Shown here: positions 4,587-61,899 of the stretch, piece by piece | Layout: each line of letters starts with the position of its first letter | Position numbering within the stretch: position 1 is the stretch's first letter | Assembly: GCA_963978895.1 (NCBI GenBank) | Contig: OZ022238.1 | Span: 24,092,515 to 24,156,514, forward strand | Source of the DNA: Erpobdella octoculata | Taxonomy: Eukaryota; Annelida; Clitellata; Hirudinida; Erpobdellidae | DNA: 64,000 nucleotides | Direction of reading: 5' to 3' | Made by a program: the position numbers and the translations under genes | Notes under the pieces: model-generated | Seen by the model: the letters and a program-made list of their open reading frames with translations, nothing else | The model's database searches: none | Told to the model about the DNA's origin: nothing

Positions 4587-6899
4587 CATCGGCTAGGAGG
4601 GCAGCTTGATCTCGTGATTTCACGTGATGATATGGTAGATCTTCAAGTTTCTGTGCAAGAAACTGGCTTATCTGATCATCTAATGCTATTGTTTCGACTT
4701 CCACTCCAAAAACCAACTAAGCCTGTTGCCACTTTTTGGGGACGTTCATGGAAGAGATTTGATTATAATGCATTCCTGACTGATTTACGTTTGAGTGAAC
4801 TTTGTCATAATCCAGAAAATTTCGATCATCATTCAACTGATGAACTTTTCCAGTGCTATTCATCTACTCTATTAAAGCTTCTCGATAATCACGCTCCGTT
4901 TACATTAATCAAAAGAAAACCTCGAAATCTACTAACGCCATGGTTTGATAGTGAATGCCGGGCATTTAAGCGGTCCACGAGACGACTTGAACGGATTTAT
5001 CGTCGGCATCACACAACGGCGAGTAAATCTATATGGATTGACGGCCTGCGGACCATGCGATATTTGTTCCAGAAAAAAGAGCATGAATACTGGGAAGCCA
5101 GGATTGCCGCTAATCAGAAAGCTCCAAAAAAGCTCTGGAGTAACTTGTCAACACTTCTTGGTAAAGAAAAGTCCTCATCTAATGTGAGCTCTTCTATTAC
5201 TCCAGACCAGTTTGTGAGGTTTTTTCAAGACAAGGTAGAGCAAGTTAGAACACATACAGCGCTTGCAAAGCCACCATCTATACTTTTGACCAGCACGTTG
5301 TTCATGGATGAATTCCAACCAGTCACCGCTGATGAGATAATAAAATTGATAATGGCTGCTCCGAACAAATATTGTTCATTGGATCCATCCCCTACTTGGA
5401 TTATCAAAAAATGTTGTGTCCACATTGCATCTTTTGTCGCTTTGATGTGCACTCGATCTCTACAAGAAGGATATTTTCCTGCTAGTCAGAAGTCAGCACT
5501 TGTCACTCCGCTTATTAAAAAAGACGGACTTGACCCTGCTGACATGAAGAGCTATCGACCAGTCTCTAACCTGACCTTTATGTCAAAACTGGTAGAGCGG
5601 ATTGTTGCTAAACGATTGAATGTACATCTAGGTCTTTCTGGCAGTCTCCCATCGAACCAATCTGCGTATCGCCGGTTTTACTCTACAGAATCTGCACTAC
5701 TCAAAGTAGTGAATGATCTGGCAGTTGCTACTGATAGTGGTAAGGTGTCGCTACTGAGTCTCTTAGATCTGAGTGCCGCATTCGATACTGTTGACCATGG
5801 AATCCTTATTGAGAGACTTGAAAAAACTCATGGCATCTGTGGAGTTGTCTTAAAATGGATTATTTCATATTTAACTAACCGCACGCAACGGGTTAGTGTG
5901 GGTGGGAACTTGTCATTGTCCGTGTCGCTTAGTAGTGGAGTACCCCAGGGATCAGTTTTGGGCCCACTACTCTTTCTATTGTACACCACTGATTTACTTG
6001 AAATTATTCATCGTTCTGGACTCGAGGGACACTGCTATGCCGACGACACCCAAACATATGTTCACTGCTCTGTTGATGATGCGGAGAATGTTCACCTTCG
6101 CTTATTGCCCTGCATAGAGAACATTGAACAGTGGATGGCCTCTAATCGTCTAAAACTGAATGGCGATAAGACTGAATTAATCTGGATAGGTGCAAGATCA
6201 AATTTGCAACAGAGTAAAACAAAAGCCTTGCTAGTTGCTGGGGCTTTGGTTGCCCCCACAGAAGTTGTTCGAAACCTAGGTGTTTATGTCGATTCTGAGC
6301 TTTCCATGAAAGATCATATATCTAAACTGTCAAAAACCTGTTTTTTCCAACTACGACAACTTAGAACCATACGAAGGTCTCTGACAAGTGAAGCAACACG
6401 TCTCCTGCTGCATTCGTTTGTTGTAAGTAGACTTGACTACTGCAACTCTCTATTTACAGGCTTACCTCTTAGTGCTGTTGGAAAGATTCAACGTATTCAA
6501 AATGCAGCTGCTCGTCTTTTTGGTGGACTAAAGAAACATGATCATGTGACTGCAATAATGAAAACTGAACTCCGGTGGCTGCGTATCTCTGAGCGAATTA
6601 CTTTCAAAATTGGGACTTTAGTCTACAAGGCGCTCCATGGCGAAGCCCCCTCATATTTGCAAGAGCTGTGTGTCACTGTGTCTGATAACAATTCTTACTT
6701 ATCTCGTCACAGATCTGCTAGTCGTGGTGATCTAGTTGTTCCCATAACTCAAACAAAAACTTACGGCAGTCGAGCCTTCAGTATAGCAGGACCGGCAACA
6801 TGGAACATGTTGCCTGCCAGCATCCGAGAAGCCACTACATTGAGTTTATTCAAGGCCGAGCTAACGACATTTCTGTTTGCGAAATCCTATCCAAATTGA
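4586..6899 (+). CDS. CR1/L2-like LINE ORF2: endonuclease C-terminus plus reverse transcriptase
   Basis: The frame is open from the (TA)n junction. The first Met is at 4614 (761 codons), but codons before it (GGQLDLVISRDD) already match the C-terminus of an apurinic-type endonuclease, so the true start was lost by 5' truncation. The endonuclease end reads SDHLMLLF. The reverse transcriptase follows with YRPVSNL, SAAFDTVDH, GVPQGSVLGPLLF and the catalytic YADD (about residues 470-473). The C-terminal domain has the SRLDYCNSL and GPATWNMLP signatures of the CR1/L2/Jockey group. There are no stops or frameshifts, so the copy is young or recently active. It copies LINE RNA by target-primed reverse transcription. 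The first ORF and most of the endonuclease are absent, so this copy could not move by itself. Confidence 0.9.

Positions 6900-15457: not shown

Positions 15458-15462
<5 letters not shown>

Positions 15463-15534
<72 letters not shown>
15463..15534. repeat. (TTA)n microsatellite
   Basis: About 24 tandem TTA/ATT triplets. The flanking text around 15290-15450 repeats a short 'aaatccactaaaacgg / ttcctaaaatcc' theme. Confidence 0.97.
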
Positions 15535-15536
<2 letters not shown>

Positions 15537-16019
15537 ATCCTACTCGGATTACAGATTGCCATTAGACGACGTAGTAGTTCTGAGTGCGGAGAGTTTAATT
15601 AAAATGCGGTTTTCACTTTAATATGTTCAGATAGACAAACATAAAAGAATTGATCGAAAAAAAAAATTTTTGAAAGTCAAAATTTTGAATTTTCAGCTTT
15701 TGAAAAATTTGCGCGATTTTACATTTTTCGAATAATAAGCCGAATTAAAAGCGTTAAAGAGCTGAAATTTTCAGTAACCACTTAAAAAAACGTATTATTT
15801 ACTATTATTCTAAGTAAATTTAATTATTTTAATTATATTTTGAGTTTCGTAAAAAAAGGCACTTAGACCACTATAATGAAGCATCTGACACAAAGCTCGA
15901 ATATGAGTTCTCGATACACTCAAGTTTTTTAATTTACTTTTCTCGAATATCTTTTCAACCGCTTGATAGTTTCTTACCAAATTTCATACAATAAACATAT
16001 TGCTACTATTTAAAATAAA

Positions 16020-16900
16020 TCTGAATTTAAAACTTTGTAGCTCAACGATTAATGCCAAAATAAAGATATTTCATAAACGGTTAGGTCTATATTAGCTTCG
16101 TTTCGTAGGTTTTTCACGAATTACGCCCAAACCGCTTGAAATATTTCATCCAAACTTTACATGTTAAAACCTTAACTAATTCGTAAAAAAAAGCCAAAAA
16201 TTTGAGTTTTGAAGGTCAACGTTTACAGCCATGGTAAAGATATTTAAGTAATGGTTAGCACTCGTGCAATTTTTTGGCTCGATTTTTCGCCAATAAAATT
16301 TTAACCAATTAATATTTCTCAACCAAATTTGAGGCAGTAATAGAAAGGGTAATTTAAGACAGTTATCTGTAACTGTAGTTTTATAGGTCATCCATTAACT
16401 GTTTAATTGATAAAAAGACTTTTATTCCGTACAGTGAATATCTTTTTTACCAATTGAAGATTTTTAACCATACTTGATATTCGAAAAATGATAGTAATTT
16501 TTAATACGTTTCTTTAGATTATTAAATTTTAACGTTGTAGCTAAACGTTTAATGTTAAATTTAAGCTACAGTATATTTTGTAAAGTGTACGGTTTCAATG
16601 AAGCTTTCGGTCCTTTGTTTTAAGTAAATAAGTTTTAAACAAAAGCGAATTTTTTAACCAAACTTCATAGGATGAAACTTTAGATAATTTTGGACAATTA
16701 TCTGAATTTATTGTTTTGTAGCTCAACATTTAACAATATAGGGAATTAAAATGTTAACAAAGGTGATTTCATTGCTTTGCTTCAATAATTTTTAAACTAA
16801 TTAAAAGTTAGTGACCAAATTTTATATTTTTTCAACCTAGCTTTTTCTGAATGAGTATTTAAAGTTTTAACTTTATAATTGCACGACTAGTGCTAAATAA
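16020..16900. repeat. Degenerate long-period repeats, no gene
   Basis: The phrase 'ttgtagctcaacgattaatg' recurs in altered form near 16036, 16206, 16534, 16716 and 16872, spaced roughly 160-330 bp apart. Each copy is followed by text on the theme 'aaccgcttgaaatatttca...caaactt'. This resembles the 157-bp internal repeats of the Helitron at 33070-34984, but no Helitron ends were found. The region 16900-17440 is AT-rich without supported features. Confidence 0.4.
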
Positions 16901-17439
16901 AAACCTTTTCATTTAAGGTATAATTAATAAATTTTGACAAAAAAAGTTTTTTTTTAGAGAGTTAAGCTATCCATCAAATTAAACTGTTTGTACTTAAAAT
17001 GATAGATCAATTTTATCTATTTAAAGAGATATTAGAAGAAACTCCTGTAAACAATTTTTTTGAAAATTTAAAAATTGTAGCGCGCAAATATCTCACATTT
17101 TAAGAATTATGATGGTTTCCAATAAAATTATGAAAATTAAAAATTAATTAAGATTTCAGAGATACACCCTTCTGTCTATTTATAAACTTTATGGTAATAA
17201 TGTCGATTTTTGGCTTCTGATTCGTTATAAAATATCACGTGCTTATATACGTATAATAAGTCAATAGTTGTTTGCGATATAATATATTTAAATATATTTT
17301 TATCGGAACAATTGTTCCGTTAAACTTTAAACCACACTTAAAAGAGTTTTTTAACAAGTTTTAAAGTAAAATTTAAAGAGCAAGTTGTTTTATTGAATTC
17401 AATAACATTTTGGTGTATCAACCCCCCCAGGACCCAGGT

Positions 17440-17580
17440 ACCTGGAAAGATGAGACATGGACTACTAGTCAACTAGACTAGTGACTACTTTGAAAAACTT
17501 GAAAAAGACATACATAAGGACCTAGTGAACTAGTGACCTAATTTATAGTAGTCTAGTCTAGTGTAGTCCTAAGGACATAA
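17440..17580. repeat. CTAGT-rich imperfect palindrome
   Basis: The left arm 'ggactactagtcaactagac' and the right arm 'agtctagtctagtgtagtcc' are imperfect inverted complements about 75 bp apart, both dense in CTAGT. A perfect 12-bp palindrome CCAGGTACCTGG lies just before. It may be a small fold-back element. No duplication of target was seen. Confidence 0.45.
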
Positions 17581-17779
17581 AAGTAAGACTTACATCTTTT
17601 ATTTAAAAGCATTTGTGTTTTGTTCACCATTGGTCCAAAATGAGATCTTAATAAAGAAAGTTGATGAAAAGGTGAGAGATTATAAGACAAGAACACTTAA
17701 GATTGTTTGTGTCGAGGATGTCACGGTATATTATGGTGATAAATAATTTATAACTTAATTTAATGATTGTTACTGGTGA

Positions 17780-18420
17780 TTGAAAATGATGAAACTACTT
17801 AGACTTAGTAACTGATATGATGAATGAGTGATAGAAGACAAACTAAGATTAACTTAATATGATAAGGGAAATAAATAAAATACTATGATTTAAAATAATT
17901 TAGATTTATTGTAAATTAAAATAATTAGATGATAATGTGTCTTAGACAATTGAATCACAGCACTTTGTGATTGATAACATTTTTGATGAGAATTTAAAGT
18001 TATCTTTAGTGGTTCTGGAATTGAGAAAGAGCAGGTATTATAAGAATTAGTTCAAAAACTTTGTGACAGTTTTATAGTATATTTGCTGAAGTGAAAAAAT
18101 TGATATTTTACATTACCATCTTTTGATTTTTTTTCTTATACTTTTCCCATAATTTTGACAGCATCTTATTCTCACCCGAGTTTCTAGCTTTGAATTTAAC
18201 CTATGTGCCACAATTTTCAACTTTTCACAATCTTGCACATACCAGGGAAATAAGTCAAACAATATTGAAATTAAATTATTTCAAAAATGTAAAAACTAAC
18301 AGTATGTTGAAACAAAATCTACAAAAGCAACACATGACGCTAAAAAAGGTTTACATGCAAAACTTGAACAAGATGAAAGAAAAAGTAATTTATATGCAAT
18401 AAAAAAATTAAACAACATAA
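17780..18420 (-). repeat. 3' flank of the recombinase locus, shared with 12240-12720
   Basis: See the matching region at 12240. The shared blocks occur in the same order and orientation relative to the minus-strand genes. The small plus-strand frame at 18190-18402 in it is not supported as a gene. Confidence 0.6.
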
Positions 18421-18436
18421 AAAATGTACACAAAGC

Positions 18437-19045
18437 TTACACGGGAAGCTGAAAGAAAATGAAATGTACAAAAACAATAACACGGGAAGCTGAAAGAAAA
18501 TAAAATGTACAAAATCGCTTACACGGGAAGCTGAAAGAAATTGAAATGTACAAAATCGCTTACACGGGAAGCTGAAAAAAATTGAAATTTACAAAAGCGC
18601 CTACACTGGAAGCTGAAGGAAAATAAAATGTACAAAATCGCTTACACGGGAAGCTGAAAAAAATTAAAATGTACAAAAAGCTTACACGGGAAGCTGAAGG
18701 AAAATGAAATGTACAAAACGATTACACGGAAAGCTGAAAGAAAATGAAATGTACAAAATCGCTTACACGGGAAGCTGAAAGAAAATAAAATGTACAAAAT
18801 CGCTTACACGGGAAGCTGAAAAAATTGAAATTTACAAAAGCGCCTACACTGGAAGCTGAAGGAAAATAAAATGTACAAAATCGCCTACACTGGAAGCTGA
18901 AGGAAAATAAAATGTACAAAATCGCTTACACGGGAAGCTGAAAGAAAATAAAATGTACAAAATCGCTTACACGGGAAGCTGAAAGAAAATAAAATGTACA
19001 AAATCGCTTACACGGGAAGCTGAAAGAAAAAACTGTACAAAAGCG
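18437..19045 (-). repeat. 41-bp tandem array in the 3' region of the recombinase gene
   Basis: About 15 copies of a 41-42-bp unit on the theme 'cgggaagctgaaagaaaata' plus 'aaatgtacaaaatcgcttaca'. The array begins just after the recombinase stop codon. Read on the minus strand, every unit contains a pyrimidine tract ending TTTCTTTCAG and, about 8 nt later, GTAAGC, that is, a splice-acceptor-like and a donor-like sequence. It may be 3' UTR or an element terminal array. Confidence 0.85.
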
Positions 19046-19048
19046 GTC

Positions 19049-20800
19049 TTAAAAAAAACTTTTTATTTTTGCTAGGATAGCATAATTTAACTTATCAATA
19101 TCCTTTTTAATTTTAACATTTATACATCTTTTAATAATTAACTCTTGATAAAAGTCTTGATTGTTACTTAAAATATCGCGAAGTTGTTCCAGTGTAGGCG
19201 CTTTTTTATTTACAATATAGTATTTGAAAAGGGATTTTATACTGTTGCCATGTTCATACTCCCACCGTACCCTCTGGCTGGAGAGTTTGTCTGCAGGCTG
19301 GTCTGGAGGGATATCAGAAGAAGCAGCTAAAGTTTCATGGAAGGGTTCAGTTATTGTGCTAGTTGATGCAGATGTTTTTTTATTATATGCATATCTAGCT
19401 TCCTCCAAGAACAAATTGGCAGCCCCCTTTTTAGACTGAACAGAATAATGTATTTCAGCAGTTTTGCTTGAGTGCTGCATGTGTTTCGCTGCCATGTATC
19501 GGCTGTTGGGATTGTTTGCAGCAATTTCAGAGGCCATGAATCTTCTTATGGTATTACAAGAAACATCATGAGGAAAACCGAGGGAGTTATAGCACTTTGT
19601 CAGGATTATTCTAATGAGTGATGATGTAATTTGTTTGCCTGAGGATGTGATGAATATGTATGTTGTGTCTATGTTAATATTTTTTAAATGCTTGTTTCTT
19701 ATTTTTAAATAATAATTGAATAAGTTAAAAAGTTGGGGTTCGAAAATTATGGTTGCGCCTCCGTAAACTCCCGCAGTTTTGTGTTTATCAATTAAAAATG
19801 TTGCACAATCTGAATCATCATTTATATCAACAAGATGTTCTAGGGTGAAGTTTGTGAGAACGCACGGGCGTGGAGCGTTACAAGCGGTTAATGAGATAAT
19901 AAAGTGATTTCGTAAACTAAGCATAATATTATTTAAAGTATCTTTATCATAACTGTTAATTAAACTATTGGGAAATGTTTTATAGAGTTGTAAGATATCA
20001 TGACTTTTCGTGTATGCAGGATAAAATTTAGTGGTGAGTCTGTCTCTATATCTACGACCCTCTAACTCTGCACGATGACGGGAACCCTCCTTGTGGACCG
20101 TCTTTATCCAGTTAGGTATTACATGAATCCAATTAGAAAAATTTAATTCATTACTTATTTCGGGGTGTTTATACAATATATACTTTACAAATTGTCGAAA
20201 GGAATACAGATAGGTTGCTATCGATGAAGGTTTAACTTGTCGGACTCCTCGACCATTTACTATAACTAATTTACATTTAAGAAACAAAGGATTAAAATAC
20301 TTCTCTTCTACATTTTCAATATTTAATTTATCTAAAGACGATCCACAAGCGTCAACTATTGTTTTACAGTGTTTAACTATTCTATGGGAACCAAGTTTGT
20401 TGCCCCCCCCCGCCGATGCCAAATAGTTAGAAAAATTAAAAAACATTTTTTTATCTATAATTAATTTTTTGCTAGGGCCAGTTATTTTTAAAACATTGTC
20501 ATGATTAGGGTGCAGAGTTAGAGGGTTGCATGCATTTATTTCAGTTACATCCGGATTATTGTAAATAGTTTCGGGATGAAAAAGTTTAACGTGCATGTCC
20601 ATTCTTATAACATTTACATTACAAAATTTACACGTTTTCCTATCCTTTTTAATACCAGTCTTCCGTCTTTTATAGTCGGCTGCGGAAGTTACCAGAGCAA
20701 TAGGATTTTCTATATTGTGTTTCTTGCTGCGCAAGTGAGGAGGCAACTTGGAAACAAATTTGTGGCACAGCGGACACTCAAATTTTTTTCGTTGTTTTAC
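19049..20800 (-). CDS. Tyrosine recombinase with two C2H2-like fingers (Crypton-like)
   Basis: This is an uninterrupted 583-codon exon on the minus strand. It starts after a good acceptor (ATTTTTACAG at 20801-20810), not at an ATG. The first codons give a finger FECPLCHKFV...HLRSKKH (about residues 7-28) and a second CKFCNVNVIRMDMHVKLFH (about 57-75). The C-terminal half fits a tyrosine recombinase: first catalytic Arg in NAPRPCVL, then HKTAG, then TIRRFMASEIA holding the second Arg, then MQHSSKTAEIHYS with His and the nucleophilic Tyr. The His normally in the H-x-x-R box appears to be Asn (CNTIR). Such enzymes cut and rejoin DNA through a 3'-phosphotyrosine. Without reverse transcriptase, a Crypton element or a gene domesticated from one is likeliest. 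The upstream acceptor in phase 0 implies at least one 5' exon. The array gene immediately upstream could supply it. Confidence 0.85.
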   Translation of the reverse strand, partial: VKQRKKFECPLCHKFVSKLPPHLRSKKHNIENPIALVTSAADYKRRKTGIKKDRKTCKFCNVNVIRMDMHVKLFHPETIYNNPDVTEINACNPLTLHPNHDNVLKITGPSKKLIIDKKMFFNFSNYLASAGGGNKLGSHRIVKHCKTIVDACGSSLDKLNIENVEEKYFNPLFLKCKLVIVNGRGVRQVKPSSIATYLYSFRQFVKYILYKHPEISNELNFSNWIHVIPNWIKTVHKEGSRHRAELEGRRYRDRLTTKFYPAYTKSHDILQLYKTFPNSLINSYDKDTLNNIMLSLRNHFIISLTACNAPRPCVLTNFTLEHLVDINDDSDCATFLIDKHKTAGVYGGATIIFEPQLFNLFNYYLKIRNKHLKNINIDTTYIFITSSGKQITSSLIRIILTKCYNSLGFPHDVSCNTIRRFMASEIAANNPNSRYMAAKHMQHSSKTAEIHYSVQSKKGAANLFLEEARYAYNKKTSASTSTITEPFHETLAASSDIPPDQPADKLSSQRVRWEYEHGNSIKSLFKYYIVNKKAPTLEQLRDILSNNQDFYQELIIKRCINVKIKKDIDKLNYAILAKIKSFF

Positions 20801-20941
20801 CTGTAAAAATAATTATGATTGATGAGAGTCTATATATTATGTTTGTCACAGGTAAATATTCAGTTTTGGCTTATTGTAATATTGGTGGTTTTGCCATATA
20901 TAATAAATTTTGATGCAGTTGACAACTTCTTTATAACAATT

Positions 20942-20947
20942 TTTATT
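20942..20947 (-). terminator. Poly(A) signal AATAAA of the short array transcript
   Basis: AATAAA on the minus strand, 36 bp after the TAA at 20983-20985. If the terminal exon is instead spliced at 20991, this site would be an intronic polyadenylation signal and would decide between short and long products. Confidence 0.55.
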
Positions 20948-20982
20948 AATTGCAGTCTAGCCATAAAACATACAAAAATAAA

Positions 20983-23563
20983 TTAGCTCACCGATGGCAA
21001 AGATGTCAACTCTGAATTTGGAACGAGAGAGCTAAAAGTTTTAAGTAAATGCTTTATTTAAGATTTTTAAGCTCAACACTTTTAAATAGTGAACGGTAAT
21101 TACTTGTCAACTGAAGTGAAGTAAACCGAAGCAGCTTCTTGGCCAATACGAGCAGGCAAAACCTGGCGCATTGGAACGAAAGAGCTGAAAGTGTTAAGTA
21201 AATGCTTTAATTAGGATTTCAAATTATATAACGATTAAGCTCAACACTTTTAAAAGGTGAACTGTAATTACTTGTCGACAGAAGCCAAATGAATGGAAGG
21301 AGCTTGTTGGCCAATACGAGCAGGCAAAACCTGGCGCATTGGAACGAAAGAGCTGAAAGTGTTAAGTAAATGCTTTAATTAGGATTTTAAATTATATAAC
21401 GATTAAGCTCAACACTTTTAAAAGGTGAACTGTAATTACTTGTCGACAGAAGCCAAATGAATGGAAGGAGCTTGTTGGCCAATACGAGCAGGCAAAACCT
21501 GGCGCATTGGAACGAAAGAGCTGAAAGTGTTAAGTAAATGCTTTAATTAGGATTTTAAATTATATAACGATTAAGCTCAACACTTTTAAAAGGTGAACTG
21601 TAATTACTTGTCGACAGAAGCCAAATGAACGGAAGGAGCTTGTTGGCCAATACGAGGAGGCAAAACCTGGCGCATTGGAACGAAAGAGCTGAAAGTGTTA
21701 AGTAAATGCTTTAATTAGGATTTTATTTTAAATAACGATTGAGCTCAACACTTTTAAAAGGTGAACTGTAATTACTTGTCGACAGAAGCCAAATGAACGG
21801 AAGGAGCTTGTTGGCCAAGACGAGCAGGCAAAACTTGCGGAATTTGCACGAAAGAGCTGAAAGTGTTAAGTAAATGCTTTAATTAGGATTTTATTTTAAA
21901 TAACGATTGAGCTCAACACTTTTAAAAGGTGAACTGTAATTACTTGTCGACAGAAGCCAAATGAACGGAAGGAGCTTGTTGGCCAAGACGAGCAGGCAAA
22001 ACTTGCGGAATTTGCACGAAAGAGCTGAAAGTGTTAAGTAAATGCTTTAATTAGGATTTTAAATTATATAACGATTAAGCTCAACACTTTTAAAAGGTGA
22101 ACAGTAATTACTTGTCAACTGAAGTGAAGTAAACCGAAGCAGCTTCCTGGCCAAAACGAGGAGGCAAAACTTGCGGAATTTGCACGAAAGAGCTGAAAGT
22201 GTTAAGTAAATGCTTTAATTAGGATTTTATTTTAAATAACGATTGAGCTCAACACTTTTAAAAGGTGAACATTAATTACTTGTTCACTAAAGCGAAGAAA
22301 GGCAAATCATGTTCCTGTCCAAAACGTGCGGTCAAAACCTGGCGCATTGGAGCGAAAGAGCTAAAGTGTTAAGTAAATGCTTTAATTAGGATTTTAAATT
22401 AAATAATTAGTAAGTTCAAGACTTTTAAAAGGCGAACGGTAATTACTTGTCAACAGAAACCAAAGGAGCTTGCTGGCCAAAACGAGCAGGCAAAACCTTG
22501 CGCATTGGAACGAAAGAGCTGAAAGTTTTAAGCAAATGCTTTAATTAGGATTTTAAATAAAATAACAATTAAGGTCAACACTTTTAAGAGGTGAACTGTA
22601 ATTACTTGTCAACAGAAGCCAATTGAGCCGAAACATGCTGGCCAAGACGTTGAGGCAAAACTTGGCGATTAGGCATGAGCGAACTGAAAGTGTTAAGTTA
22701 TATCTATCAATTTTTTTAAATTTTTTTTCAAACAGTCAAGCCGCTGTTATCTATCATTTGTAGGTCCATTAAATTCAACCAGAGTTAGCCGTTTTTCCAG
22801 GCGCCCACATCACTTTAGGTGTTGATAAACTCATTAGGACTCAAACTGCCAACCTTCAGGTTTACAGACGAACGCCTTACCATCATACCACCAGCCTTGG
22901 CGAAAAAAATTGAAAATAGTAATTACTCTGTGACATCAGCGTCTTCTGAAGGTGACTTCAATATGTTGGGCTTGTCTACCAGACCACTGGAGAGTATTGC
23001 GCTCTCTGAAGCAAGGTGGACTACCTAAAAAAGTTTCACTTTAAAATAAGTTTCAAAACACATACAACGCCGGAACAATATGTCATTTTGTTATGAGTTC
23101 AAAATTTTTGTTTGAATTAAGGGAAAGTTGCCTGAGATAAGACGATTTTTAGACAACTCAACTATATAATAGAAACGTAACAAAAAAAGCGCTGTACAAA
23201 AAGTCTACCTCTTATAATTAGTTGCATGACTTTAAATTAATATGTAAATAAAGTATATAATATAAATAAATATATGAAGACATAAACGCAGCCATAGATT
23301 CTGTTACCAAGGAAACCATGGTAGTATATTTCTTAGAGAAAAATGTTAGAAGTTAAAGGTGTAATTACCAGCGGTAGAGACAAATTTTTTGCTAAAAATT
23401 TATGTTTAAATCATAAATAAATTGAAATTAATTGAATTTTAGATTTCATTTATAAATTTTTAACGGGCGCCATCGGCGTCCAAGAACAGCCCAACATTAA
23501 GTTTAAAATACTTACCTCTATCACTTCACTTTCCAAAATTTCACTCAAGAACGTACGAGACAT
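20983..23563 (-). CDS. Exon-array gene: ten tandem 72-81-bp exons encoding a 24-27-residue repeat
   Basis: Minus strand. Exon 1 (23563-23516) starts with ATG (MSRTFLSEILESEVIE) and ends GAG|GTAAGT. Exon 2 (23391-23369) is a 23-nt microexon that changes phase exactly as needed. Then come ten internal exons: 22683-22606, 22518-22447, 22360-22280, 22192-22112, 22024-21944, 21856-21776, 21688-21608, 21520-21440, 21352-21272, 21184-21104. Most are 81 nt, each with acceptor (C)TTTCAG or TTTAG and donor AA|GTAATTAC, all of the same symmetric phase. The peptide unit is about SFVPMRQVLPARIGQ then QAPSIHLASVDN. Only this frame is open in all units; the other two meet stops. The terminal exon starts at 21031, reads SLVPNSELTSLPSVS and stops at 20983, with AATAAA 36 bp later: 305 aa in all. 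A donor G|GTGAGC at 20991 would instead join it in phase 0 to the recombinase exon (20800), giving 886 aa. I recognise no known family. Confidence 0.75.
21032..22690 (-). repeat. 168-bp tandem array (exon plus intron per unit)
   Basis: Exon starts are spaced exactly 168 bp apart over eight units (21104 to 22280), then 167 and 159 bp. Each unit is an 81-bp exon plus an 87-bp intron. Introns share 'ttaattaggattttaaat' and 'gctcaacacttttaaaagg' on the plus strand. Units at 21272 and 21440, and at 21776 and 21944, are nearly identical, which indicates recent unequal crossing-over. Units at the 5' end of the gene (22447, 22606) are the most diverged. Confidence 0.95.
22700..23040 (-). mobile_element. 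tRNA-headed SINE inside intron 2 of the array gene
   Basis: On the minus strand a tRNA-like head reads 'ggtggtatgatggtaagg' (box A-like) and 'ggttggcagtttgagtcc' (box B-like) around 22915-22830. It has downstream text without coding meaning. The boundaries are approximate. It lies between exon 2 and the first array exon, in a 685-bp intron. Confidence 0.5.
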
Positions 23564-24221
23564 TATTTCTAACAAACTGAAAATCTAACAGAAAATTTGT
23601 CAAGCTAAAATGACTAAAGGCGGGCTTTGAGAATGCGGGAATGTGGTAAGTTAAGTTAAATATGCGAGATGTGCATGACCTCACCACACAAAACTAATTA
23701 TTATAAATTTAATAATTTGGGCGTCTTGATGTTTCATTCTTCTAAGTGTTTTATAGGTAAACGTTCATTTTAACCCAAGAAACAGGAAAGTGGTGAAAAA
23801 GGCCAGTATTAATTATTTCAATCCCGGCGAAAGATATAAGATGACATGTATGCTACATTTTTCATCTGCAAGTTAAGCAAGGCCAAGGTGAGGGCTGCAC
23901 CAAAGTTCTTAGGGATACAAATATGCTCACAGTAAATCTTACGTTTGAAGATTTCAGTATTTCCCCTTGGAAACAAAATTGAAGCAATTTATTGTAAAAA
24001 AAACCTAGTTCAGAATGTCTGAAAATGAATTTTTAAACCTTTATCGGAAAGATTATGGCTACGTATATAGATAATTAAATCCAAAAACATAGGAGAAACT
24101 ACACGGAAATTATTTTCTTTATAAATATCTTTTTTCAATAGATTTATTTTTTTTGTTTCATTTAAAAACTAATTTGGACAAGCGAACTCGTTTAATTAAG
24201 CGCGCATCAAAACCAGGAAAT

Positions 24222-24380
24222 GCCAATAGTTCGTCTCAAAGCAAAAACGGCGTCTCAAAGCAAAAACGGCGTCTCAAGGCAGAAAAACGGCGTCTCACGG
24301 CAACTATTCGGCGTCTCAAGGCACGTTGCTTTTAAACGAGGCAACTAACAGCTAAAAACGGCGTCTCAAGGCAGGGTAGA
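24222..24380 (+). repeat. Short tandem repeats of 'aacggcgtctcaaggc'
   Basis: About seven imperfect copies of a 16-20-bp unit on the theme aaaaacggcgtctcaaggca. The array directly precedes the (TTA)n run. The 60-codon frame across it is not supported as a gene. Between 23564 and 24150 nothing else is recognised. Confidence 0.8.
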
Positions 24381-24381
24381 A

Positions 24382-24642
<261 letters not shown>

Positions 24643-25390
24643 TTCTCCTCCTCCTTGTGAAACAAAAGTCCCCTGTCGATATAGAAGTTTTTACACTTGT
24701 CTTTACCTAATAACCAAAAGGACTTAAGTGAAGGACAATCATGTTGCTCCTTAGCAAACGCATTTTGATCATTACTATCGTCTACCCCTTGACAATCATC
24801 GTTAACTGTTACAAATCGAGCGTCGGTTTGTGAATCATTTCCCCCCGCATCAGCACCTGGACAAACATCTTCACCCGGAACAACAGAAACATGACAAGTA
24901 TCGGCCTGTGAATTAACTTTTCCAGCCTCAGCAGCACGAGAAACATTTTTATTTACTTCAAGTCTAGGAGCATTTTCATCAGAGTCATGTGCATTTTGTT
25001 TGTTTTTAATAGGATACGCAATAGTGTCATATAATGTTATTATTTTTAATAGGTTATTTACAGAGGAAGTAATAATAATTTGTTCATTAAGATTTGGGAC
25101 GACAGCGAACCATGCTCGAACCTTGGGTGCTAGGTTCACAATGTCATCACCCACAATATCAGGTCGAACAACTAATCTGACACATCCTACAATCTCTGGT
25201 TGACCTTTAAGGCCAGACAATTTAATAAATTTATGTGGTACCATATGAAGAGGTAGGATTAAATCTTCTCTAATGCAACACACTTCTGCACCACCATCAA
25301 TCAATGCCGGAATAGATGGTAATTGATCGATAAGTACATTCTCATAAGACCCAATGTGATAATCATCAGCATCTATGATGGAACATGCTT
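24643..25390 (-). pseudogene. Gypsy-type retrotransposon remnant: protease joined to integrase N-terminus
   Basis: The minus-strand frame begins before the annotated Met: DQLPSIPALIDGGAEVCCI, with DGGA in place of the usual retroviral-type protease D(T/S)GA. About 200 residues later comes HDCPSLKSFWLLGKDKC followed by DRGLLFHKE, typical of the N-terminal zinc-binding segment of Gypsy integrases (GLLYh-like end). Reverse transcriptase and RNase H, which normally lie between these domains, are missing, yet the frame is open. The sequence then runs into the (TTA)n tract. No LTRs were found. It is an internally deleted or non-autonomous relic. Confidence 0.65.
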
Positions 25391-25559
25391 CTAGACAGGG
25401 AAAGATTTTTGATCATCAAACAATATTTCCCTATCAACGAGACCATTAAGGGAATTTTCTGAATAAGAATTAAGACAATTTTGTTATCATCAAACAATGT
25501 TTTCTATCAACGAGACAATTAAGGGAATTTTCTGTCTGACAATTAATTCTAGTATTAGG

Positions 25560-28517: not shown

Positions 28518-29826
28518 CAGGGACGTAAATTGCGGGGGGAGCAGGAGGGAATTTGCCCCCCCTTTATTTTCAAATTTTGAAATTTTTTTTACCTAGAGTT
28601 TACTATATACTTATTTAATTTTAACTTTACTTAACCTAGTGATGAATCAATGCATATTGGAATCCTTCTGGCGTGTGTAGACAATCCCTCCCCTCGATTT
28701 CCAAAATTTACGTATTTTTGCACCTAGAGTTTATTACATAAATTGCTAATTTTAACTTTACTTAACCTCGTGATGATTCAATGCGTATTGGATTTCTTTT
28801 TGCGTGTGTAGACAATTTTATATCTGAACTCGATGCTGGATGTACCAATAAATGCATAGTAATAAATTGTGTATCAGCGTTGGTTCAAAGTTTAGCTATT
28901 TCCTGTGCCAAAATACAATCAGCGAACTCGTGTAACTTTACCCTATTAGTGGTATTGATACAATGTTGATTCCCTCACAGCTGTCTACATCAAAGTTATT
29001 ATTATTTACTACGCAAAAATAAAATACAATTATACACACACCATTTTGGACATCTTTTTTACTAATCCTGTACCTGCCCCTGCAATATGTGGCGGATCCA
29101 GAAATTCCTGGGAGGATACATTTCAGAAGTTGAGGCGCTGGTGGCAGAGCGGTAGAGCGTTCGCCTGTCGATCGTTAGGTCGGCAGTTCGAACCTCGCCG
29201 GCGTCACCAGCGTAACTCCCTTAAGCAAGGAGTTCACTCGCATTGCTAAAAGGGTAGGCGCCTATAAATGGCTGCCTCTGCAAATGCCATTTCTCGCCTT
29301 TGAACAAGACTTAAGTCTTGGAAAAGGCGTTGTGAAAGAAAAATTAAATAAGTTGTTCACATTCTCTTCAAAAAAGCTGATGACCAGTGAGGGATAGTAG
29401 TAAGTATTTTTCCAATTTTTCCAAATACTTCCACTTTATCTCTCAAAAAAGCTACGGTCATTTTTAAAAAATAGGTATTATACCCTAAAAAATATCAATT
29501 GATGGTCTGGTGGGAGGATGCATCTCTCCATTCCTCCCTGCTTGTACTTACGTATTTATATAGATATAAAGGTAATGTGTGTGTGAGAGCATTCGCTTAT
29601 CATATCCAAGTCGCAGGCGCAACATTTGGCCTGCAGGTATACTTCATTGATAAGAAAATTTTTAAAAATTAAAAAAATCTGTTATTTATTTGATATTTCA
29701 TTGGCAGGAAAAAGGAAAAATCTAAGTAAAAAACAACCCGGGCAACACCGGGTAACCCTGTGAGTAGGCTAAATAATGGCGGGAAAATTTTGCCCCTTCC
29801 TGGAAAATGCTGAATTTACGTCCCTG
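28518..29826. mobile_element. Nested DNA element with CAGGGACGTAAATT ends
   Basis: The left end CAGGGACGTAAATTGC and the right end GAATTTACGTCCCTG are inverted. The element splits the hAT transposase reading frame, so it is younger than family C. No intact 8-bp duplication is visible. It contains two tandem ~120-bp repeats ('tttacttaacctagtgatga' theme, about 28575-28810) and a SINE at 29131-29345. No transposase was recognised. Confidence 0.7.
29131..29345 (+). mobile_element. tRNA-headed SINE (family S1, copy 1)
   Basis: The head 'tggcagagcggtagagcg' (box A-like) and 'ggcagttcgaacctcgcc' (box B-like) form a tRNA-like 75-bp unit. The body holds 'cttaagcaaggagttcactc' and 'aggcgcctataaatggctgc', then 'tcttggaaaaggcgttgtg' and an A-rich end. 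A second copy in reverse orientation lies at 56851-57070, about 85-90% alike by eye. Mobilisation by a LINE is inferred. Confidence 0.85.
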
Positions 29827-30739
29827 TTCCTTGACAACCTTTACTAAACGGGGATATACACCAGCTCTGTCACTCCACCATTTCAAAGGGTCAGCATCCC
29901 TTGCAATTAAGGGTTCATCAGTAAGCCGCTTTACTTTAATGATGGCTTCCGACATCGGGGTTTGGGAGTTGATACAGTCTGCATATCTGCTGTCAAACTC
30001 ATCCCATATTGAAGATCGGGGTTTTGGTTGTTTTAAAACATCATCTACTTGAGGCTGCACTAGATTATTGTTATTCTTTCTGCACGCCAAGAGTTTTGCA
30101 TTCTTTACTGCCTGTTCTAGTGCTGAAGCATCGCTAAATTTTTTTCTTTTTAACCGAGGGTCCAGCAAGGTTGACTCTGCGCAGAGAGTTTGCGTTTCTA
30201 CACCAGTAAACCTTTTCTGTAGTCAACTAGCTAATGCATTGGCCAAGTTTATGACTTTCGGATTGAGGGAATTGTTATTCTTAGGGGCACACGAATTTTT
30301 TAATAGCGCTTTTGATATCAAAATAACTTTGATAGAGACACTGTTTTTTCTTAGCTAATTTCTATAGTGAGTTAATATAAATAAGCCAAGCTTGAGGCAC
30401 TTTGATATTGGCTGGTTAGTCCGGTAAGCTCCGCCTCTAAGCTAATTACGTAAATGAACCAAATAAGATTGAGCGATTCTTTTTAGAATTAATGAATCGA
30501 CTCAGTTGGTTCACCTCAATGAATCGTTCAAAATGAACGATTCGTTCGAAATCGCCCATCACTAATATAAAAAGAAGGAGGGAGAGAGAGACATGCATTA
30601 CACTAGGATCCAAGAGAAAGAGAGAGAGGGAGAAACTAAGGTACTTCTTAAGTCCAGCTTTAATAAATCAAATAACCACCTTTACAGTTACATTTACTTC
30701 TAGATGTGCAGCACGCTAGTGTTTATTGACTATGTTACA

Positions 30740-40724: not shown

Positions 40725-41795
40725 TCTATATATATAAAAATGAATGTTTGTATATATGTATATATGTTTATATGTTAATGTCCTTTATGCATTGCTACAC
40801 CATTCATCCGATCGTAATAAAATTTTCACACAACCCTGAGAGTCAATGGAAGTCAAAAATAAAAAAAAAATTTTTGAAATCCGTCACAAAATGAGCGGAG
40901 CGGAGCGGGTGAGCGAGCGGGAACTATATATATATGTATGTATGTGCGTATGTATGTGTGTATGTCGCTTTTCCGCTCTCGGTCGTTTTCCAGCTCCCGG
41001 TCGCTTTCCCGCTCAGAAGTTTTGTTATCGATTTTCTCTCTTGCTCGCGTTTCCTTCCAAGCTTGCTCTCCCGATTCCAGTCGCTTTCCGCGTTCCCGGT
41101 CGCTTTCCGCGTTCCCGGTCGCTTTCCGCGTTCCCGGTCGCTTTCCCGTTCCCGATCGCTTTCCCGTTCCCGGTCGCTTTCCCGTTCTCGGTCGCTTTCC
41201 CGTTCCCGGTCGATTTCCCGTTCCCGGTCGCTTTCCCGTTCCTGGTCGCTTTCCCGTTTCCGGTCGCTTTCCCGTTCCCGCTCACGCTTGCTCTCCCGTT
41301 CCCGGTCATGCTTGCTCTCCCATTCCCGGTCACGGTTGCTCTCCCGTTCCCGTTCACGCTCATTTTCTCTTTTACATTCTTTCATAACTTCTGTTAGCCT
41401 ATAAAACGTAAAATAGATTTGCTAAGACTATATATATATATGAATGTTTGTGGGTTAGTTTGTCTATTATAGAAACAGGAAAGCGACCCGGAACGGACAG
41501 CGAGCTGGAACGGAAAAGCAAGCGTGAGCGGGAATGGGAGAGCAAACGTGAGCGGGAACGGGACAGCGACCGGGAACGGGAAAACGACCGGGAGCGGGAA
41601 AGCGACCGGGAGCGGGAAAGCGACCGGGAGCGGGAAAGGGAGCGGGAAAGCGACCGGGAGCGGGAAAGTGACCGGCAGCGGGAAAACGACCGAAAACGGG
41701 AAAGCGAACAGGAGTGGGAAAGGAAATGGGAGAGAAAGAGACAAACATTAGAAAAACCTCTAAAAAACCTGGGCAACGCCTGGTATCTCCGCTAG
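40725..41795 (+). mobile_element. Minisatellite Helitron, copy M1
   Basis: It starts A|TCTATATATATAAAAATG and ends GGTATCTCCGCTAG|T, the A|TC...CTAG|T form of Helitrons, with a 3' hairpin sequence gggcaacgcctgg before the end. The 5' module (to about 40920) contains 'cattcatccgatcgtaat' and 'gagcggagcggagcgggtg'. The remainder is two inverted arms of 18-bp units meeting at an AT-rich centre near 41430. It has no real coding capacity: the long ORFs in all six frames arise because the 18-bp unit lacks stops in any frame. Confidence 0.75.
41100..41280. repeat. 18-bp minisatellite, left arm of M1
   Basis: About ten units of 'cgttcccggtcgctttcc', with single-base variants. The inverted partner, 'gaccgggagcgggaaagc', is at about 41565-41690. 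Confidence 0.95.
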
Positions 41796-41806
41796 TATAT
41801 ATATAT

Positions 41807-41996
41807 TGTTACGATATCACCAAATCGTATACCGGGCTCAATAGAATGGTTTTGATGTTTTATTGGAAAATAATAAATGAAGCTTTGTTACGGCTAGTTA
41901 TACCTTCTGGTTTAATAATAATGTCCATAATAGTTATTCGAAGTCCTTTAAAAGTCTATCAATGCGAAAACCTATTGTAAAAACAGCGATTTTACA
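41807..41996 (-). repeat. 3' LTR of the gag-only element
   Basis: 190 bp; differs from the other LTR around 41951-41968 ('aaaagtctatcaatgcg' against 'aacgtctatcaatggg'). Confidence 0.9.
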
Positions 41997-42043
41997 TTAT
42001 TACCCCCTTCTTAATTCTGTTCGTCCCGAACAGCATATCGCTT

Positions 42044-43567
42044 TTAAGAAATGCGACTCGGCCACGAACACCAAAATACCTTAATCTTTACTCGTGGCTT
42101 TGACCGCAATTCGCAAACCACATGGTCAAGTCTCTTGACCGTTTGACACAGTTTCTTCCAGTCCTTCTTTGGCTCATCAACAGAGTCTTTCTTTGGCTCA
42201 TCGTCGCCATTTTTGCACGGTTCATCACAGCCTTTTTTGCATGCCTCGTCCTGAACATCTTTGCACGGTTTATCGGAATTGTCTGCTTTTTCTTCTTCCT
42301 TCACATCCTTTAGATCTTTCTCAAGAAACTCTTCAAAAGGTTTTTCGAAAACACGTCGTTCCATAAATCCAATAAATCCCTTCATCAAACTGTTATTTGA
42401 TTTTACAATGACTCTTAGTCTATCTGATCTAGAATCTTCTGTGGATTCATCTGATTTAAAACCCTCGGTACCGTTCTCTGTTCTTGTCTCATTTTTTCCA
42501 GAGTTTTTGCTTGCTGCATTGCTATTGTTGTTTTGGAGAAGTTCATCGCCGTCATGTTTGTTTTCTTCCAAGCTACAATCGAACGTTTTCTTTTCACATT
42601 CCAACTCGGCTCTTTCGTCGGTGTCAACTTTCGTATCGTCCAGCGGATCTTTCTTCAAATTATCGCCATCGTCTCTCAAATCAGTGTCTTCTTTTCTTGT
42701 CAAGTTAACTTTGACGTATTTTTCCATTGGAGTTTCGTCCGTTTCTAAATCCTCGGTTGCTTCATCCGAGTCAGATTCTTCACTAAAATCTGACCCTGAA
42801 TATTCGGTGCCGTCGTCTGTTATGGAGGCTTCCGTTTCAGAACCGTCGCTGTATGGGTGAAAGCCATAGTTGTTATTGCCATTATTATAATCATCATCGT
42901 CACTTTCATCCTCATCGTTTTGCATTTCGTTTTCAACATTCTTCTCATCTTCTTTAGTTTGGTTTTTGACGTCCAAACCGACTGTATCACTGTCACCATC
43001 TTTGCATGGTTCATCTTGAGCATCTTTGCAAGGTTCCTTATCATGACCGTCTTTGACAGGCTCATCATCATGACCCACCTGACTTGTGCAGTCTGTACGG
43101 CCGTCATCCGTCACATGCTCTGAGACACAGCTGGTGGACTCCATTTCAAATTGGGTTTCGCCGCAGCAACCCACATCACCAGCAGCCCGCTGGTCCAGAA
43201 CCGTGTCCACCACTGCCTCAGTCAACCCTGCGACCAAACTCTCAACAGTTGTACCGGCTGCTGCCACTTTGTTTCCGTGGCCAAGAATCATTCCTTCTCC
43301 TGTCTTCTTCTGTGCTGCCATGTTTTCTTTCGCTCGTTGTCTTTCTTCCTCCAGCAATTTGTTTTTTAATTTCCTTCGCTTGACCACAGCTTCCTCGTCA
43401 ATGTCGAATAGATATTCGTCGTCGTCAGGCCCATAGCCCTCATTCACTAACGCGGCTAAGAGGCGTTCCATAAGTTCGTCCTTTTTACCTGTATCGCTCA
43501 GGCCACGTTTCTCCAGCTCGTCTTTCATTTCACTCGCCCAAAGCTCATCCAATGATTTCAAAACCAT
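42044..43567 (-). CDS. SAP-domain Gag-like protein of the LTR element
   Basis: The ATG lies 26 bp inside the 5' LTR. Residues about 1-42 form a SAP motif: LDELWASEMKDELEKRGLSD followed by TGKKDELMERLLAAL, a helix-extended loop-helix that binds AT-rich DNA and is found at the N-terminus of several animal Gypsy Gag proteins. A charged helix KRRKLKNKLLEEERQR follows. The centre (about 170-430) is very acidic and of low complexity, with repeated DEPCKDG-type units. The C-terminus (VKRLDHVVCELRSKPR and onward) is basic. There is no CCHC knuckle and no protease. The frame is intact at 507 codons. Plus-strand ORFs opposite it are shadows. It probably packages element RNA or acts in trans with an autonomous relative. 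This is inference. Confidence 0.8.
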   Translation of the reverse strand: MVLKSLDELWASEMKDELEKRGLSDTGKKDELMERLLAALVNEGYGPDDDEYLFDIDEEAVVKRRKLKNKLLEEERQRAKENMAAQKKTGEGMILGHGNKVAAAGTTVESLVAGLTEAVVDTVLDQRAAGDVGCCGETQFEMESTSCVSEHVTDDGRTDCTSQVGHDDEPVKDGHDKEPCKDAQDEPCKDGDSDTVGLDVKNQTKEDEKNVENEMQNDEDESDDDDYNNGNNNYGFHPYSDGSETEASITDDGTEYSGSDFSEESDSDEATEDLETDETPMEKYVKVNLTRKEDTDLRDDGDNLKKDPLDDTKVDTDERAELECEKKTFDCSLEENKHDGDELLQNNNSNAASKNSGKNETRTENGTEGFKSDESTEDSRSDRLRVIVKSNNSLMKGFIGFMERRVFEKPFEEFLEKDLKDVKEEEKADNSDKPCKDVQDEACKKGCDEPCKNGDDEPKKDSVDEPKKDWKKLCQTVKRLDHVVCELRSKPRVKIKVFWCSWPSRIS

Positions 43568-43574
43568 TCTTGTA

Positions 43575-43592
43575 TCCCAATTCTGACACCAA
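43575..43592 (-). promoter_or_regulatory. Primer-binding site
   Basis: TTGGTGTCAGAATTGGGA on the minus strand, one base after the LTR ends, is where a tRNA would prime minus-strand DNA synthesis. The matching tRNA is not determined. Confidence 0.75.
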
Positions 43593-44984
<1,392 letters not shown>

Positions 44985-45000
44985 TATATATATATATATA

Positions 45001-46146
45001 TCTATATATATAAAAATGAATGTTTGTATATATGTATATATGTATGTTAATGTCCTTTATGCATTGCTACACCATTCATCCGATCGTAATGAAATTTTCA
45101 CACAATCTTGAGAGTCAAGGGGAGTCAAATAAAAAAAAAATTTTGAAATCCGTCACAAAATGAGCGGAGCGGAGCGGGTGAGCGAGCGGGAACTATATAT
45201 ATATGTATGTGCGTATGTATGTGTGTATGTATGTATGTGTATGTGCATGTATGTGTGTCTGTGTGTGTGTGTGTTTATGTATGTACTAGCGGAGATACCC
45301 GGCGTTGCCCGGGTTTTTTAGAGGTTTTTCTAATGTTTGTCTCTTTCTCTCCCGTTTCCTTTCCCACCTGCTTTCCCACTCCCGTTCGCTTTCCCGTTTT
45401 CGGTCTTTTTCCCGCTCCCGGTCGCTTTCCCGCTCCCGGTCGCTTTACCACTCCCGGTCGCTTTCCCGCTCACGTTTGCTCTCCCATTCCCGCTTACGCT
45501 TGCTTTTCCGTTCCCGCTCGCTGTCCGTTCCGGGTCGCTTTCCCGTTTCTATAATAGACAAACTAACCCACAAACATTCATATATATATATATATATATA
45601 GTCTTAGCAAATCTATTTTACGTTTTATAGGCTAACAGAAGTTATGAAAGAATGGAAAAGAAAAAATGAGCGTGAACGGGAGAGCAACCGTGACCGGGAA
45701 TGGGAGAGCAAGCATGACCGGGAACGGGAGAGCAAGCGTGAGCGGGAACGGGAAAGCGACCGGGAACGGGAAAGCGACCGGGAACGGGAAAGCGACCGGA
45801 AACGGGAAAGCGACCGGGAACGGAAAAGCCACCGGGAACGGGAAAGCGACCGGGAACGGGAAAGCGACCGGGAACGGGAAAGCGACCGGGAACGCGGAAA
45901 GCGACCGGGAACGTGGAAAGCGACTGGAATCGGGAGAGCAAGCTTGGAAGGAAACGCGAGCAAGAGAGAAAATCGATAACAAAACTTCTGAGCGGGAAAG
46001 CGAACGGGAGCTGGAAAACGACCGAGAGCGGAAAAGCGACCGGGAACGCGACGAAAACGGGAAAGTGGAGAAGGAAACGGGAGCGAGAGAGACAAACATT
46101 AGAAAAACCTCTAAAAAACCCCGGGCAACGCCGGGTAACCCCACTA

Positions 46147-46147
<1 letters not shown>
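45001..46147 (+). mobile_element. Minisatellite Helitron, copy M3
   Basis: It starts A|TCTATATATATAAAAATG directly after a short TA run behind M2 and ends GGGTAACCCCACTAG|T. The 5' module (45001-45200) matches M1. An internal inverted CTAG end at 45286 opens a twin-tailed section identical in plan to M2 but in reverse order (45286-46147). The terminal hairpin sequence is ccgggcaacgccggg. Only repeat-derived ORFs are present. Confidence 0.75.

Positions 46148-46214
<67 letters not shown>
46148..46214. repeat. (TA)n microsatellite
   Basis: TA run between M3 and the next Helitron unit. Confidence 0.97.
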
Positions 46215-46218
<4 letters not shown>

Positions 46219-46228
46219 CATATTCTAT

Positions 46229-46800
<572 letters not shown>

Positions 46801-59196: not shown

Positions 59197-60548
59197 TATT
59201 TGTCAACATATCTGCATAATGAAATGAAATGTCAACAGGGAGACTACTATTAAGCAATGCTTGTAGTGTAGCCACCCTTTACAAAAATGACACAAAAAAA
59301 TCAAATATAAACACAATGCTCAGTTTTTCAAAGAAACGATTCTAAATTATGTTCACAAATAAATTTCTTGACAAAAATTTTAAAAATGTGAACTGAAGAT
59401 ACACATCTGATGTCTTCTGGTAAAATGTTCCATAATTTTGGTCCAATGACTTAAACACTTGTATAAAGTATTTTCAATCTGCAGTAAGATAAATGAAAGA
59501 TACCTGTATGTCTTGTTTGTCTATTCTTTATATCTGATGATAACATAAAATTATCAAAGACAGGGCAATGCATAATATTATTAATGAGCTTAAACATGAA
59601 AACCAAGATGCTATAGCAATGAATCCAATAGATTTGCTTATTTTTCTTCTAACCGCATTTATATGATCTGTCCAAGACGAACTTTCCATAATGGTAACAC
59701 CAAGAAACTTTGTGAACCCCACTCTAGGCAGTGAAGTTCCACCATATTCAATACGAAATAGAGGAAGAGCATTTAATTTAATTTTTGGTCCAAATATCAT
59801 GTAGTTTGTTTTGCTGATGTTAATTTTGAGACGATTTGCAGAGAACCACTGAGAAAATTTCACTAATTCAATGTTCATCACAGCTGTAACTTCATCTATA
59901 GAATTTCCAGAATAAAACAAATATATATATATATATATATAGTTTGATCAATGATTTACATTTATACTGTTTCCCATAAAAGAAATTGAAAATGATCATC
60001 TTCTTGCATTTTGAGGTCAAAAACATGGCAGATTCCTTTCAGGTGAACTGCGATACAATATTGTAGAAATGGCAGCGATTACTCGCTATGTTCCACTAAT
60101 GACTAATGAACAAAGAATCATTTACGACCGCATTACACTGGCAGTTTTGGAAGGACATGGTGGATTCTTTTTTTTGGATGCACCAGGTGGAACTGGGAAA
60201 ACATTTCTCACTTCTCTAATTCTCGCCGAAATACGATCAAATAATGGCGTAGCTTTGGCCGTTGCATCGTCTGGCATTGCACCAATTTTATTGGATGGAG
60301 GCAGAACAGCTCATTCAGCACTTAAGCTGCCACTGAATATTAAAAATAACCTAGAAGCAATGTGCAACATAAACAAGTAAAGATGAAATATTAATTTTAA
60401 AAAAATGCTTTGATTTGCCTCTAAGCAAATTACATGTTTAAATTAGTAAACGCTATTGGAAACTCGGACTTCGATGCGAAATATCGATCGCCAGAGCTTT
60501 GTGGCCGGTTGTCAAACAATTTTATTAGTTGCTAGATGGTAGGAATTA

Positions 60549-61852: not shown

Positions 61853-61899
<47 letters not shown>

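Follow-up and report, generated by a model that had tools for sequence, protein, structure and literature searches.

According to an earlier description, tyrosine-recombinase elements are rather rare and little understood (PMC4157794). For Cryptons, it has been proposed that the intermediate is circular and that recombination takes place at short direct repeats located at the termini (Kojima and Jurka 2011, PMC3212892). The recombinases of nimaviruses belong to viral genomes (300 to 360, presumably kb, in one genus) located in (TAACC)n or 28S rDNA; they are reported to lack a close relationship to Cryptons, DIRS and Enterprise, and concatemers across the repeat are suggested for the telomere-repeat nimaviruses (PMC10871703). 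Short or tandemly duplicated exons have been described in genes of other kinds, namely, the micro-exon genes of schistosomes, which encode secreted proteins and have long introns (PMC10526429, PMC5825161), and Dscam-type host genes with mutually exclusive splicing (PMC1397879, PMC9013439).

Here, we analysed a 64,000-nt stretch of the 386-Mb genome of Erpobdella octoculata (hereafter, the window; G000:C1:24092515-24156514), in which an earlier note had read a 168-bp tandem array as a hidden stand-alone gene. Our analysis places that region in the 5' part of a recombinase gene within a repeated mobile element. Judging from the sequence, the locus is very probably an 8.85-kb DNA transposon that resides in (TTA)n microsatellites and carries one predicted spliced gene of 14 exons, encompassing both the tandem array and the recombinase.

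The mobile element, its copies and its TTA-flanked ends

The element spans 15535-24384 (8850 bp, with its gene on the minus strand), and its ends, which are common to copies with different flanks, are exact except for the phase of the adjoining TTA runs. The left (3') flank is a (TTA)n run at 15460-15534 (period-3 repeat 15460-15535) and the right (5') flank a longer run at 24385-24644 (period-3 repeat 24384-24644); the left end of the element reads TAATCCTACTCGGATTACAG and the right end GGGTAGAATCA. Subterminal direct repeats of the CGTCTCAAGGCA type at 24232-24380, with periods of 19, 21 and 40 over 24232-24323 and more identified by eye, are possible recombinase sites. Within 15535-24384, stop-to-stop ORFs of at least 120 aa are limited to the recombinase and to repeat-coded frames at the right edge. 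Directly after its stop lies a 41-bp tandem array (18421-19042, 15.3 copies), which contains a 19-bp exact inverted match to the 3' part of the recombinase ORF itself (19205).

The array DNA yielded at least 41 genomic matches, a lower bound with 40 of 59 candidates scored, and the recombinase search at least 80 (74 of 351 candidates scored), including an intact near-identical copy and intact divergent ones. The near-identical copy, on C7 (C7:24471717; C7:24473735), differs from the window by zero substitutions and one 3-nt gap over window positions 17004-24384, and the DNA beyond its right TTA run is different from that of the window. The element looks recently active. Furthermore, there are short derivatives (L016-L025), with long 41-bp arrays, in which the match jumps from 21306 to 23291 in all ten copies fetched.

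Exact-pattern searches, which pass over degenerate copies and any copy whose outermost pattern base is G, found a TTA-type run at 45 of 45 right ends and at 57 of 57 left ends, compared with 0 for the control pattern in each case. Among the right ends, 40 are perfect TTA over the 15 bases shown, three have one changed base and two leave the repeat after two units; among the left ends, 54 are perfect over 14 bases and three are irregular at one or two bases. The sole 5' end examined from family B, a related recombinase family of the same genome, also adjoins (AAT)n. In addition, at three places one copy follows another in head-to-tail order with only a short TTA run between them; one of these pairs (C3:11280410/11280451) is seen as sequence in L014, and the other two (C7:30846422/30846443 and C8:17076449/17076470) are deduced from match coordinates.

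These features are compatible with a scheme in which the recombinase would excise the element as a circle and insert it through recombination between TTA cores; the head-to-tail copies fit integration beside a resident element, or concatemers. A TTA-type run at every exactly matched end would also be expected if the runs were made by the element, through a small target duplication and later slippage, rather than chosen as a target. However, long runs are present on both sides of the window copy, and elements are joined head to tail across short ones, and we consider this origin of the runs rather doubtful.

The DNA around the element is repeat-rich. At 40840-46420 and 61078-61953, several minisatellite blocks with units of 18-24 bp look coding (RERESD/GKRP frames) and are flanked by ORFs that resemble one another; they are probably copies of one repeat element. 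Pfam matches outside the element comprise a reverse transcriptase (RT) ORF (4587-6899) and a SAP-domain ORF (42044-43594), with a hAT-like dimerisation piece at 29722-30222 (below cut-off) and a PIF1-like helicase piece at 60015-60380. The ORF at 24645-25412 adjoins the right TTA run, and its frame enters the AAT repeat where the element sits; it has no Pfam match and, as a guess, could possibly come from a retroelement polyprotein.

A predicted 14-exon gene ending in a zinc-finger recombinase

The predicted gene encodes 911 aa and is stop-free and phase-correct from its ATG to the recombinase stop. In this model, the conserved start is short (exons 1 and 2) and leads into the tandem array (exons 3-12); the small exon 13 would link the array to exon 14, which holds the fingers and the recombinase, and all array units would be included in the spliced transcript.

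Tandem Repeats Finder reported the array as a 168-bp repeat (9.8 copies, 89% matches) at 21067-22698. Within it, ten exon-like segments on the minus strand (21104-22683; 78, 72 and 8 x 81 nt) alternate with spacers that would be introns of 86-87 nt, and each encodes a module of 23-26 residues (24-27 counting the split codon) centred on VLPARIGQ. The acceptor is CTTTCAG, or CACTTTAG in one unit, the donor is AA|GTAATTA, and every unit has symmetric phase 2; all ten units keep intact splice edges. Each unit is open in the phase-2 frame, compared with five and nine of the ten in the other two sense frames. Exon lengths vary by 3 and 9 nt and intron lengths by 1 nt. These results bear out the description in the earlier note of ten symmetric exon-like segments on the minus strand, with the chosen frame alone open in every unit. 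We read the array as a row of small exons, predicted from their splice edges and phase, within the recombinase gene of a mobile element.

The coding part of exon 1 (23516-23563, minus strand; MSRTFLSEILESEVIE) is a 48-nt ATG exon that ends in phase 0 at a GTAAGT donor. We assign exon 2 to 22927-23024 (minus strand), an open 98-nt segment running from phase 0 to phase 2 and beginning VVHLASESAIL... The exon 1 junction motif is also present in families B and C, the exon 1/exon 2 junction being EVIE|VVHLAS in the window, EVQ|VLHISE in family B and EVK|VVHVSD in family C. Exon 1 reads MFADGFYSGELQEVQ in family B (L046, L033), where exons VLHISEVATVSCSEVVP come next, and MSFLCDDWEEVK in family C (L047, L039), where VVHVSDGPQT comes next. 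When scored against these two families, the exon 2 acceptor ranks first among the 35 AG sites in the intron (score 36, next 5) and alone reaches 36 among the 6431 AG sites of the window, in a test that was not blind because the family C exon 2 was picked partly by eye and by its likeness to the exon in the window; the family B exon was first found as a tandem array. The 23-nt microexon previously proposed at this position (23369-23391, minus strand) does have splice-like edges and the right phase, but the 98-nt exon is preferred by the junction motif. The join made by the 23-nt segment is without the motif common to families B and C, and the segment is probably intronic.

At the 3' end of the array, exon 13 (20992-21031, minus strand; 40 nt, phase 2 to 0) ends at the donor ATCG|GTGAGC. 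An acceptor in phase 0 at 20800, TTTTTACAG|GTAAAACAACG, opens into 583 codons ending at 19049, which form exon 14 (19049-20800, minus strand; 583 aa plus stop) with C2H2-type finger motifs and a tyrosine recombinase. An AG acceptor ahead of the finger is also found in L033, L041 and, by eye, L042. Furthermore, the first in-frame ATG of the recombinase ORF is at codon 67, beyond the first CPLCH finger, and therefore the first finger needs upstream exons. Thus, the terminal exon proposed earlier does not hold, its stop lying past the donor from which exon 13 would join the acceptor at 20800; the 305-aa reading drawn with it is open as stated, and its ATG exon is kept in the 911-aa model. A search for spliced, intronless copies with an exon-exon junction pattern (two mismatches) gave 41 matches versus 41 for the reversed control, and therefore splicing is unsupported by any processed copy.

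The in-frame stop directly past the exon 13 donor, together with an AATAAA at 20947 in the same intron, would also allow two products, the full recombinase and a truncated array-module protein made by polyadenylation in the last intron, perhaps as a self-regulator. The letters of exon 13 are identical in L009, L010 and L011 over the stretch compared, and the following intron, with its donor and the stop, is unchanged save for 3 nt within the intron. However, these three copies are close relatives, and such hexamers arise by chance in AT-rich DNA, with 11 AATAAA/ATTAAA on the minus strand in 18000-21100; we consider a second product unlikely.

We take the exon 14 product to be a C2H2-finger tyrosine recombinase, on the basis of relatives that are 38-46% identical and of a low-confidence structural model. 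The relatives within the same genome share 46, 45, 44 and 38% identity with the window protein, the first two belonging to family B. The window recombinase itself had zero Pfam matches up to E 10, and in the alignment of five members, PF00589 (Phage_integrase) was matched in the four others (E up to 5). Only the family C member L039 is above the curated cut-off (3.2e-6, 27.5 bits versus 27.1), with L033 (3e-4) and L041 (0.11) below it. The PHROG_216 integrase profile was likewise matched in four of the five members, the window member giving E 0.036. The finger motifs CPLCH and CKFC are present in the window protein, with weak profile matches. Searched against the PDB by sequence, the single protein retrieved only a zinc-finger chain (E 0.27), and the alignment profile retrieved the integrase 3nkh (E 0.015) and two unrelated chains (0.36 and 0.47). 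No sequence homologs outside this genome were found for the recombinase or the five-member alignment, the predicted first 330 residues had zero protein homologs at E up to 1, and viral_contigs yielded no relative, in collections that may contain few eukaryotes.

The AlphaFold2 model of the window recombinase has a mean pLDDT of 59.4 and a pTM of 0.36. In a Foldseek search, 39 of the first 40 PDB rows are titled tyrosine recombinase (XerA, XerH, XerD, lambda Int, Cre and others); the remaining one, 3c28 in row 17, has a title that names no recombinase and is, we presume, Cre. The best match has E 3.5e-5 and probability 1.00, with TM-scores of at most 0.49 among the matches listed, and integrases by name are among the top viral models. 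Candidate catalytic motifs are APRP 309, IDKHK 337, CNTIRR 415, KHMQH 439 and HYSV 451, assigned by eye from the R-K-[H/N]xxR-H-Y motifs, with N rather than H at the HxxR position. In family D (L041, G000:C3:5081375-5083123), we observed an intact 576-aa recombinase-like ORF without the expected catalytic arginine and tyrosine (AQKA in place of APRP, ACHFKQ in place of HYSV), which may have been domesticated or may be a dead copy.

In comparisons between families (A, B, C and D), the recombinase shows pN of 0.35-0.41 and pS of 0.64-0.79, values that purifying selection would give, although synonymous sites are near saturation. The near-identical family B copies L033 and L038 differ at 3 synonymous and 10 non-synonymous sites, with no sign of constraint.

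Variation of the array among copies and families

The array differs between copies by whole units. When fragments of exons 2 and 13 and pattern matches located elsewhere than in the array are excluded, there are 10 units in the window and in L009, 11 in L010, 6 in L011 and L012, and 5 in L013; L014 retains three recognisable units, and L015 is degraded. The decayed copies L012 and L013 are also damaged at single points, with loss of an acceptor, a stop and an insertion of 1 nt. Over 17173-24440, L010 departs from the window by 9 substitutions and by one 168-bp unit, with 41-bp gaps in two neighbouring bins and further gaps of 1 and 3 nt; over 16372-24410, L011 departs from it by 54 substitutions, four units and smaller gaps. 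Unequal exchange or slippage could add and remove units, and such changes would be tolerated because each array exon is phase-symmetric, keeping the recombinase in frame. The modules might form a repetitive N-terminal arm, for multivalent binding of host proteins or for spacing of the recombinase and its fingers.

Tandem exons ahead of the recombinase exon were found in three of the six recombinase lineages inspected, each with a different unit; the recombinase search also showed further lineages, for example, C5:23367684, C3:32409008 and C62:124735. In family B, the array comprises five exons of 51 nt and phase 0, in units of ~333 bp (C5:4868318-4869641; spacing 333, 333, 333 and 324 bp), and a 30-nt and a 63-nt exon follow. 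Family C carries a 153-bp repeat (2.2 copies) with a 63-nt exon and the donor AA|GTAATT, as in the window, the last repeat copy being fused to the recombinase exon. The family C model (exons of 36, 92, 69, 126 and 63 nt) stays open in a single frame over 780 residues into its recombinase, with CPLCH preceded by 156 residues; its exon 2 donor (AG|GTTTTA) is weak. In both families, the array runs open and in frame into the recombinase exon. No tandem array was detected in the flanks examined of family D (L041), L052 and L042; L042 has one 81-nt unit-like segment.

Comparison of synonymous with non-synonymous change among units, a check proposed in the earlier note, gave a pooled pN/pS of 0.65 over the ten units (pS 0.254, pN 0.164), which is below 1 but a weak sign of selection. 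Between units, exons diverge more than introns (0.18 versus 0.065), with 41 of 81 variable columns in exons and 17 of 87 in introns (Fisher p 2e-5); for units 4-10 only, the values are 0.119 and 0.032 (p 0.004). The units have a common history, and therefore these p-values are only indicative. Synonymous divergence of the array exons is also above the intron value, so that either the short introns are constrained or the exons have been exchanged with more distant units.

Higher divergence in exons than in introns would also suit alternative exons of the Dscam kind, with one or a few of the ten used per transcript to give combinatorial recombinases, and the units are symmetric, so that any subset preserves the frame. 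However, unit number varies among close copies (10, 11 and 6) and some units are identical (in the window, 5 = 6 and 8 = 9), and we think it improbable that the array works in this way. Much less likely still is satellite DNA within the transposon, with a frame open by chance and no splicing: the pN/pS is weak, another sense frame is open in nine of ten units, and the units are related, so that their open frames are not independent, but families B and C resemble the window gene in their flanking exons and carry arrays of other units that are likewise in frame, the splice edges are intact throughout, and exon lengths differ by multiples of 3. Finally, a stand-alone gene of the micro-exon type, with the ATG exon, the 23-nt microexon, the array and a stop just past the last small exon, is very hard to maintain, for its open reading, correct phases and AATAAA past the stop are outweighed by a stop beyond the donor, by a next acceptor that runs on in phase for 583 codons, by the shared junction motif of the 98-nt exon and by the family B and C arrays that likewise enter the recombinase exon in frame.

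The locus is best read as a Crypton-like DNA transposon of the integrase type that resides in TTA microsatellites and has an N-terminal exon array able to expand. The exon-array reading of the earlier note keeps its strand, phase and frame, now backed by families B and C, and loses its first junction and 3' end. The families differ in array period and in exon or phase, and we tentatively raise the possibility that a lineage of zinc-finger recombinases living in microsatellites repeatedly and independently multiplies its N-terminal exons, array length serving as an evolvable dial; if so, array length would tune the binding valency of the recombinase, its target reach or its escape from host silencing. 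Given the apparent recent activity, exact ends, TTA location and variable array, two questions become testable, namely, how elements of this kind select microsatellites and whether the number of exons tunes a recombinase. More generally, a satellite-looking repeat can conceal coding sequence from the 5' part of a transposon gene.

Comparison with described systems

Micro-exon genes of schistosomes have exons of symmetric phase. The window gene resembles them in this respect. It also has many short exons, as they do (PMC10526429, PMC5825161), and the comparison made in the earlier note is apt as an analogy of exon size and phase and for nothing beyond that; in contrast to those genes, the window gene encodes a transposon recombinase, has introns of 87 nt in its array and owes the array to tandem amplification of one exon. 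Assignment to the micro-exon gene class was rejected, the array continuing in frame into the recombinase exon. Dscam-type exon duplication likewise gives homologous exons in tandem (PMC1397879, PMC9013439), whereas the window array lies inside a transposon recombinase gene and its exon number varies from copy to copy. Among the literature matches listed, no report was found of exon arrays in a transposon recombinase gene or of a recombinase transposon of TTA microsatellites, which is not proof of absence.

With respect to DIRS/Ngaro elements, no RT was detected among the ORFs of at least 120 aa inside the element, the RT ORF at 4587-6899 lying outside, and a DIRS element was rejected for lack of an RT ORF inside 15535-24384. 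As in Cryptons, the element is a DNA transposon with a tyrosine recombinase as its only large ORF, and short non-autonomous copies are common (PMC3212892). The TTA-type repeat at both types of exactly matched end amounts to short direct repeats, a Crypton trait; however, the element ends in TTA runs, whereas animal Cryptons are reported to be without terminal repeats (PMC3212892). The element further differs from Cryptons in the C2H2-type fingers before the recombinase and in its 14 predicted exons with a tandem array. Pfam contains a DUF3504 model, and no DUF3504-type match was obtained for the window protein (E up to 10) or for the five members (E up to 5); Crypton membership of the element is unproven.

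The telomere-repeat recombinases of nimaviruses combine a C2H2 zinc-binding domain with insertion into a simple repeat, features that the finger motifs and TTA flanks of the window element may parallel, and those of the 28S group likewise have predicted multi-exon genes (PMC10871703). Unlike these viral genomes, the window element measures 8.85 kb, resides in (TTA)n and has no other large ORF. Compared by description, the nimavirus group is nevertheless the closest published parallel that we found for fingers combined with simple-repeat insertion.
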